NCBI RefSeq assembly: GCF_000189635.1
Contig: NW_002476180.1
Location: 1 to 64,000 of the forward strand
From: Tetrahymena thermophila SB210
Taxonomy: Eukaryota > Ciliophora > Oligohymenophorea > Hymenostomatida > Tetrahymenidae
DNA: 64,000 nucleotides
Reading direction: 5' to 3'
The translations under genes and the position numbers were made by a program. Of the stretch, positions 27,569 to 29,953 are shown one piece after another (positions within the stretch are counted from its first letter, which is position 1; every line of letters begins with the position of its first letter). The notes under the pieces were generated by a model that made no database searches, was not told the DNA's origin, and saw only the letters and a program-made list of their open reading frames with translations.

Positions 27569-27612
27569 TCAGAATTTAATCCCTGTTTTACAGTTTAGAC
27601 TAAATTCGTCAT
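27569..27612 (-). promoter_or_regulatory. SECIS element (form 2) in the TrxR 3' UTR
   Basis: On the minus strand, 94 nt after the TrxR stop codon: ATGA (27612-27609), then a 10-bp helix GAATTTAGTC / GATTAAATTC with one G-U pair, and UGA at 27571-27569 on the other side, giving the non-canonical ATGA/TGA core. Twelve nt after the first core is the unpaired AA (within TAAA), followed by a mini-stem CTGT/ACAG around an A-rich loop. This is the eukaryotic form 2 SECIS layout, which recruits SBP2 and EFSec to decode UGA as selenocysteine. Basal helix I is weak. Confidence 0.88.
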
Positions 27613-27705
27613 TTTCCATATTAGATAAATTAACTTTGTTTTCAATTAAATAATGCTAATTTATTATTAAATGGCATGACAAGAAATAGAGGGCCTTCAT
27701 GCAGC

Positions 27706-29953
27706 TCAAGCTCAGCAAGATGTCTTTTCACAATCTTCTCCAGATGCTTTAGTTATACTAAGATTTGTGAATTCTTCAGCAGTGGTAGGATGTATTCCTA
27801 CTGTTCTATCTAGATCAGCTTTAGTCATCCCTAATTTCATAGCAACTCCGTAGCCTTGCATTACTTCTCCTAAATTTTTAAATTAAAAAATATTTGAAAA
27901 TTTTACAATAAAGAAATAAAATATTTGTGAACCTGCATTAGGTCCAAGATAATGTATTCCAACTACTCTTTCATTATCAAGCTTATTGCATATTACTTTA
28001 GCATAAGCTTTCCTGTAAATTGTATCAAAGTTTTCATCAACTCTCGGTGAAAGCTGCTCTTCTAAAGGAGTAAACTTTGAGTGATAAACTTCGATATTTT
28101 CTTCACCAAACTTTTCTACAGCCTATTTTTCAGAATAGCCAGCACATGAATATTCAACAGGAGTAAATACTGTTGTGGGGAAATCGTTGTAGTCCATAGA
28201 ATTTTTTTAGATAAAAACTGTGTTTGGTTCTTTATTTTCTTTTTTATGCTAAATTCTTCTTGCTAATAGTTAACCTTACTTTTAGGCAACAGGTGTTAAC
28301 TCAGGAACTCCATCAAGGACATCACCAAGAGCATAGATTCCTTCCACACTAGTTTATTCTAGTTCATCATTAAACCTACCTTATATCTTTAGGATTAAAT
28401 TAAATACTGTAATTAGCTACTCTTTAATAAAAATACCTTTTTATTTTTTTAATTGAGTTAAACTCCAACCTTTTCTAAATTTAATTTCTATGTATTGGGC
28501 TTTCTTCCAATTGCCATTAAAACTGTGTTAAAAGCTATTCATTTATTTAAATTCAATTAAATTCGATACTAAAACTATTTTTAATTTTTACTGTCTTCGT
28601 AAATTTTAGATTTATCTTCTTAGTTCTGAATCTTAACTTTTAAAGTATCTTCATCTACTTTCTCCAAACTAACTGGCAAAGAAGTAGGAACTACTTTTAC
28701 TTTAGAATGTGTTTAAATATTCTCAAGAATCATTTTAGCTATGTCTTAATCGAATTCTATTTATAAATTTTAAATTAGTAATAAATTTAAAAACTAATGA
28801 TTATTTATTGTAATTAATTATTTAAACATAAAAAGTATCAATAGAACTAAATTTAAAATGTAAATTAGAATTAATAAATATATTTTTATTTACCTCTTAA
28901 ATACAAAGATCTAGTCATCATTGTAGTATCGTATCCAAGAGTAGAAAGAAATCCAGAACATTCAAGAGCAATATATCCACCACCAATGACAAGGGTTTTG
29001 CCAGGAGGTTTCTTTTGCATGAATATATCATCACTAGTTATAGCATATTTATTTGAATTTTAACATTAACTATCTGATAAAAGCTAAGGTCTGCCGCCTA
29101 CTGCTACTACAATCTTATCGGCAGTGACATATCCTAACTATTCGGTATTAGCTTTATAAGATTCATTATCTTTCAAAAATCCGCTTATTGCGTCAACCTT
29201 AGGAGAAAAAACTAAGGTATTTTTATCATAAAAAGATGCAAATGCATTAACATAATCAATATTCAGCTCGCCTAAAGATTTCTTATATCCAAAATTAATG
29301 CTTTTAATATATGATTAAACATTATTCACCAAATGTTGCCAAACTAAGTATTCTTATTTATATTTTTCCTCTAAATTTTTTCCTTCTAAATCAAAGCCAT
29401 ATCCAGAAGAGTTTAAAATAACTTCCTAAATAAGTAGAAAAATATTTACATTTAATTTTCATTTTTTTAATATTACTTTGTATAAAGCTGCTGTATGCAT
29501 AAGCTTTTTAGGAATACACCCTACATTAACGCATGTACCACCTAATCCCCAAGAGTTACCTCTATTTAATTAAAAATATTCAAATTAGCAATCATAATTA
29601 TGACAACTAATAACTATACTAAGTAGATTCTTCAACAAAGTCGAATACAACTGCTTTCATACCTAATTTTTAAGCTTCCTTTTGATATATTAATTAATAA
29701 TTTAGATCAATTTAGATTAAAAATATTGCATGTTTACAAAGGCAAAAGCTAAACCACCTGAACCTCCACCGATTATAGCTACATCGTAATGCTACTTGTT
29801 TACTTTTTCATCAATTAATGGTTTCTTTTTCTATAAATTAAATCCTTTAAACCCAGTAGAGAAATTTGATTTCGCTAGCTAGGTTTGAAGGGATTTGATC
29901 TAAAAGCCTTTATATAATTATTGGCTTTTGTTTTTGAGTGATTTTAAAATCAT
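27706..29953 (-). CDS. TrxR: Thioredoxin reductase, selenoprotein, probably mitochondrial
   Basis: Eight exons: 29953-29738, 29678-29620, 29561-29477, 29425-28894, 28756-28592, 28534-28437, 28386-27933 and 27869-27706, 590 aa. The order is [16 protein letters not shown] (FAD), [13 protein letters not shown] (redox disulfide), [12 protein letters not shown] (NADPH), GIYALGDV, then HPTTAEEF (active-site His). The C-terminus reads T-S-C-TGA-Ala-TGA. The TGA at 27714-27712 is read as selenocysteine (residue 589) because the frame continues one codon to a true stop and a SECIS lies downstream. The first 38 residues are basic, without acidic residues, like a mitochondrial presequence. It reduces thioredoxin with NADPH. 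Intron 7 has an unusual GTTCAC donor. Confidence 0.93.
27712..27714 (-). other. Selenocysteine codon (TGA)
   Basis: In-frame TGA between TGC and GCT in the TrxR tail, two codons before the terminating TGA at 27708-27706. It sits at the position of the conserved Cys-Sec redox pair. TGA is the only ordinary stop in this code, so the same codon has two meanings six bases apart. Confidence 0.92.

Follow-up and report, generated by a model that had tools for sequence, protein, structure and literature searches.

Thioredoxin reductases (TrxRs) of the selenocysteine (Sec) type end one residue past the Sec. Since UGA is the sole stop codon in Tetrahymena thermophila, genes for such enzymes end in UGA-NNN-UGA, with the same codon predicted to mean Sec and then stop. 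How adjacent UGA codons gain different meanings is a real question, which concerns a property of the code rather than a single gene. The gene TTHERM_00823430, located on the minus strand of a 64-kb stretch of T. thermophila DNA (hereafter, the window), is a useful test object for Sec/stop discrimination, as it combines two UGA codons three bases apart, a single SECIS element, and the same next triplet after both UGAs.

As a gene, TTHERM_00823430 is ordinary and has been published, so nothing categorically new is reported here. Coyne et al. 2008 (PMC2612030, Table 2) listed it among six putative selenoproteins as a thioredoxin reductase, with a positive SECISearch result and seven ESTs (6 STV and 1 TSA). 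Thus, the gene, its putative Sec, and an identical SECIS element are already known from that table, whose entry comes without a discussion of the UGA-GCU-UGA end or of the tail residues. In a collection of open-licence papers, a search with the locus tag found nothing besides PMC2612030, and no treatment of the adjacency of the Sec and stop UGAs in this gene was found there.

The reductase gene and its paralogues

TTHERM_00823430 (positions 27706..29953, minus strand) encodes a high-molecular-weight, animal-type thioredoxin reductase, an antioxidant enzyme. Its unspliced frame from 29953 to 27569 is broken and becomes open only after the removal of seven introns. In the splice model, these are GT-AG introns of 50 to 137 nt, placed by hand without cDNA under the ciliate code. 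The resulting eight predicted exons (exon 1, 29953-29738; exon 2, 29678-29620; exon 3, 29561-29477; exon 4, 29425-28894; exon 5, 28756-28592; exon 6, 28534-28437; exon 7, 28386-27933; and exon 8, 27869-27706) run from the ATG at 29953 to the second TGA and would specify a protein of 590 residues with a predicted Sec at position 589. The spliced protein matches the NCBIfam model TIGR01438 (thioredoxin/glutathione reductase subfamily) over its whole length with 548.4 bits, above the curated cut-off of 475.85. Its best match in the PDB is the thioredoxin reductase 1h6v (E value of 4.5e-133), and TrxR1 chains rank best among solved structures. The spliced frame contains the CVNVGC motif near the N terminus and ends in EKTSC-UGA-A. 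Only 61 residues precede the GGGSGG motif, too few for a glutaredoxin domain, and there is no Cys ahead of CVNVGC; judged from these sequence features, a thioredoxin-glutathione reductase (TGR) was rejected. An Rfam match to UPD-PK2 at 29542-29522 (E value of 0.87) was regarded as a chance hit.

The UGA predicted to encode Sec (27712..27714) directly follows a Cys codon; with Cys substituted for Sec, residue 589 aligns with Cys498 of 1h6v_A. The same position is occupied by UGA in two paralogues and by Cys in two others. The two Sec-type paralogues, both with published SECIS elements, are TTHERM_00486500, which ends in TCA-TGC-TGA-GCT-TGA (DSC-UGA-Ala-UGA), and TTHERM_00047660, which ends in GGC-TGC-TGA-GGT-TGA (SGC-UGA-Gly-UGA). 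Thus, the UGA-NNN-UGA end is common to all three published Sec-type reductases of T. thermophila. In the two Cys-form reductases (L027 in G000:C65 and L028 in G000:C341), the end is Leu-Cys-Cys-Gly-UGA, with Cys in place of Sec. One more reductase (L014, G000:C423:60636) shows neither a CC nor a CU tail in the frame in which its last exon was read, and an exon may have been missed.

The nearest among the compared paralogues is TTHERM_00486500, with 54% identity over residues 402-588. It shares with TTHERM_00823430 the Ser-Cys-UGA-Ala-UGA tail, a published SECIS, and a long N-terminal extension, but differs in having UUU after the stop and nine codons before another in-frame UGA; its SECIS lies 60 nt past the stop, as opposed to 93 nt. 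In PMC2612030, the table gives 0 ESTs for this paralogue. The Ser-Cys-Sec-Ala tail, which the first-pass annotation had set against the usual Gly-Cys-Sec-Gly as a possible tuning of the redox tail, is therefore found in one other published Sec-type reductase of the same genome.

The N-terminal extension of TTHERM_00823430 (29822..29953, minus strand) is basic: its first 44 residues include 10 Lys and lack Arg, Asp, and Glu altogether. Such an extension is compatible with the mitochondrial presequence suggested in the first-pass annotation, a targeting claim that is drawn from amino acid composition. In TTHERM_00486500, the frame extends for at least 110 residues ahead of the FAD motif and is partly acidic, and in TTHERM_00047660 there is a Met 12 residues ahead of that motif. 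Judged by composition, a mitochondrial TTHERM_00823430 and a cytosolic TTHERM_00047660 would fit these N termini.

The SECIS element and the Sec machinery

A form 2 SECIS element consists of an AUGA/UGA quartet, a helix of about 10 to 12 bp, an unpaired AA, and an extra mini-stem. Fold and geometric scans place all these features in the minus-strand segment 27612-27568, downstream of the TTHERM_00823430 stop: AUGAC, an 11-bp helix, AAA, a 4-bp mini-stem (CUGU/ACAG) with an AAA loop, and UGAA. Support of Sec insertion in cells by this element is predicted. The first-pass annotation had recognized the same form 2 element from its letters, albeit with a 10-bp helix and an unpaired AA in place of 11 bp and AAA. 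The fold that it had proposed as a check, that of 27625-27550, yields the form 2 hairpin at -12.2 kcal/mol with a moderate z-score of -2.57; 3 out of 200 shuffled sequences were equally stable. In addition, the 58-letter SECIS sequence of PMC2612030 Table 2 has a single exact match in the window, at 27625-27568 on the minus strand, and the SECIS pieces of the other five genes in that table each occur once in the 101-Mb T. thermophila genome.

The Rfam model SECIS_1 (RF00031) aligns with it over model positions 9-59 of 64, with a score of 22.3 bits (E value of 0.42), which does not reach the gathering score of 35. In a MAFFT alignment of the six SECIS elements, the second quartet strands failed to line up. 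A geometric filter (AUGA, a helix of 9 bp or more, AA, and UGA[AU]) returned a single match on both strands of the window, the TTHERM_00823430 SECIS, against a background of 6 matches in 30 Markov replicas, or 0.2 per window. However, this filter was designed after the element had been seen, and among the other five T. thermophila SECIS elements in print it detects just 2 (3 of 5 in a relaxed form, still with one match in the window). The filter is therefore no general SECIS finder, and the scan backs the hairpin as unusual within the window and nothing further.

The T. thermophila genome encodes a tRNA-Sec, which was found by Infernal with 68.6 bits (gathering score of 47) and was not detected by ARAGORN. 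The tRNA-Sec model has ten matches in the genome, nine of them under the cut-off. The tRNA genes at L002-L008, most of them clustered, reach 44.5 bits with this model; three of these seven fetched loci (L002, L003, and L006) were checked with ARAGORN and were identified as tRNA-Ser(UGA). The genome also encodes SepSecS (E value of 1.7e-126) and SPS2, which contains LKG-UGA-GCKVP and is accompanied by its published SECIS. A candidate from PF08433, the KTI12 family with PSTK as its kin, was found in three pieces, one of them with an internal TGA (E value of 7.9e-13), and could be either PSTK or KTI12. The eEFSec and an SBP2-like protein of T. thermophila have been named in PMC7409322.

Both glutathione peroxidase (GPx) genes of the 2008 list (in the regions of G000:C65:150700 and G000:C167:244866) contain NVACK-UGA-GLT and have their published SECIS elements 3' of the stop. 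PMC7409322, which names a GPx TtGPx12, accepts a single Sec-GPx out of these two and reports no SECIS for it. Against that account, the 2008 list with its two Sec-GPx genes looks right.

Two UGA codons three bases apart

In all six published T. thermophila selenoprotein genes examined, the stop codon itself is UGA. In TTHERM_00823430, the SECIS core AUGA starts 99 nt past the Sec-UGA and 93 nt past the stop-UGA (27706..27708). The respective distances are 66 and 60 nt in TTHERM_00486500 and 199 and 193 nt in TTHERM_00047660. In the GPx and SPS2 genes (TTHERM_00141160, TTHERM_00279820, and TTHERM_00522580), the stop-UGA precedes the SECIS core by 117, 63, and 62 nt and the Sec-UGA by 651, 512, and 1168 nt, respectively, the latter being genomic distances that may include introns. 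In the GPx gene TTHERM_00279820 (L021), the stop, 63 nt ahead of the SECIS, is a tandem UGA UGA. Distance to the SECIS was rejected as a rule that would separate Sec from stop across genes: the Sec codons of the reductases at 99, 66, and 199 nt overlap with the six stops at 60 to 193 nt, and the Sec of TTHERM_00486500 at 66 nt is nearer to its SECIS than the stops of other genes at 93, 117, and 193 nt. The minimum distance between a Sec-UGA and its SECIS quoted in PMC3737529 is 51 nt, which is exceeded by all six stop-UGAs; according to PMC4967479, ciliate TrxRs can go below that minimum.

The base at +4 is G after the Sec-UGA in all six genes and after the stop-UGA in just one of them, TTHERM_00823430, which is also the only one in which both UGAs have the identical context UGAGCU. 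A rule based on the +4 base was rejected; the G after the Sec-UGA might simply belong to the next codon, which specifies Gly or Ala. Given UGAGCU at both UGAs and the overlapping distances, neither the SECIS distance nor the 3' triplet by itself accounts for a stop at the second UGA. SECIS elements, including those of the Euplotes TrxRs, can confine Sec to the C-terminal region (PMC3737529). Such confinement would help against errors upstream but would not distinguish between codons three bases apart.

The best explanation of these data is that TTHERM_00823430 encodes a selenoprotein TrxR with a SECIS-directed Sec at the first UGA, followed by Ala and by termination at the second UGA, and we consider it very probably correct. 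The SECIS in the 3' untranslated region would recruit the Sec machinery, and the first UGA would be read as Sec for that reason. The C-terminal Cys-Sec redox pair would then hand electrons on to thioredoxin from FAD and the CVNVGC disulfide, and the second UGA, one alanine further on, would terminate the protein. The frame, the double TGA, the Ser-Cys-UGA-Ala tail, and the SECIS are all present where the first-pass annotation had placed them, and its proposal that a UGA specifies Sec even though UGA is the sole stop is upheld as a prediction. What counts against this explanation is the sub-gathering Rfam score, the moderate z-score, the limits of the geometric filter, the occurrence of UGAGCU at both UGAs, and the acceptance of a single Sec-GPx in PMC7409322.

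One alternative holds that the hairpin resembles a SECIS by chance and that the first UGA acts as an ordinary stop, so that the reductase would end at Cys588. The Rfam score speaks for it, and so do the reductases with Cys-only tails in this genome. However, a full SECIS geometry is seen once in 64 kb, just 3' of a gene from a Sec-containing family; two paralogues with published SECIS elements have Cys-UGA-small residue-UGA ends; and SECISearch was positive for this gene in PMC2612030. This alternative appears extremely improbable and was rejected.

A second alternative concerns the second UGA, which might be partly or wholly decoded as Sec as well. In its favour, both UGAs share the context UGAGCU, with the SECIS 99 and 93 nt away. 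A third in-frame UGA (27697..27699), overlooked in the first-pass annotation, lies two codons past the second one and would serve as a back-up stop, closing the frame so that a share of the product would end in Cys-Sec-Ala-Sec-Ala-Ala. Precedents for such reading come from PMC3316567, which describes SelL, where one SECIS serves two Sec codons, and Dio2, in which cultured cells could insert Sec at the second UGA after mutation of the first; in the same authors' judgement, however, that second UGA acts mainly as a stop. In T. thermophila, the other two Sec-type reductases keep the second UGA and then diverge, continuing with FYLKILLLL in TTHERM_00486500 and SSQLLMDR... in TTHERM_00047660, as compared to Ala-Ala-UGA in TTHERM_00823430. 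Such unlike sequences past the second UGA speak for a stop there, as does the termination of Sec-type TrxRs one residue past the Sec. Partial Sec insertion at the second UGA is thus very unlikely; were this improbable reading true, the two tails would occur in a ratio that reflects selenium supply. Judging by the paralogues, termination at the second UGA is much the most likely outcome, although the first-pass wording that the two codons must be Sec and then stop is too strong in view of the third UGA.

Parallels in other selenoproteins

TTHERM_00823430 resembles 1h6v, 2zz0, and 1zdl, chains of mammalian TrxR1 and TrxR2, in its fold family, the CVNVGC and HP..AE motifs, and the C-terminal redox tail. 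The tail of the mammalian enzymes is Gly-Cys-Sec-Gly, in contrast to the predicted Ser-Cys-Sec-Ala in TTHERM_00823430.

Among ciliates, the Euplotes crassus TrxRs similarly have a C-terminal Sec-UGA, and the Euplotes SECIS allows Sec insertion only close to the ORF end (PMC3737529). However, UGA in Euplotes also encodes Cys and is never a stop, whereas in T. thermophila it is the sole stop. The TrxRs of Condylostoma and Parduczia, aligned in PMC4967479, likewise combine a C-terminal Sec-UGA with a code in which UGA has other meanings. There, UGA stands for Trp, stop, and Sec, and the Sec codon comes shortly before the SECIS (PMC4967479), as opposed to 99 nt in TTHERM_00823430.

Mammalian Dio2 belongs to a system that uses other stop codons too, whereas T. 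thermophila has only UGA. The second UGA of Dio2 is not known to lie one codon past its Sec codon. Still, it is an in-frame UGA of a SECIS-containing mRNA that was judged to act mainly as a stop and is followed by another stop 9 to 21 nt further on (PMC3316567). SelL, described in the same paper, has two Sec residues that are two residues apart and depend on one SECIS. Among the systems compared, the second UGA of Dio2 and the SelL pair (PMC3316567) are the nearest parallels to the adjacent UGAs of TTHERM_00823430.
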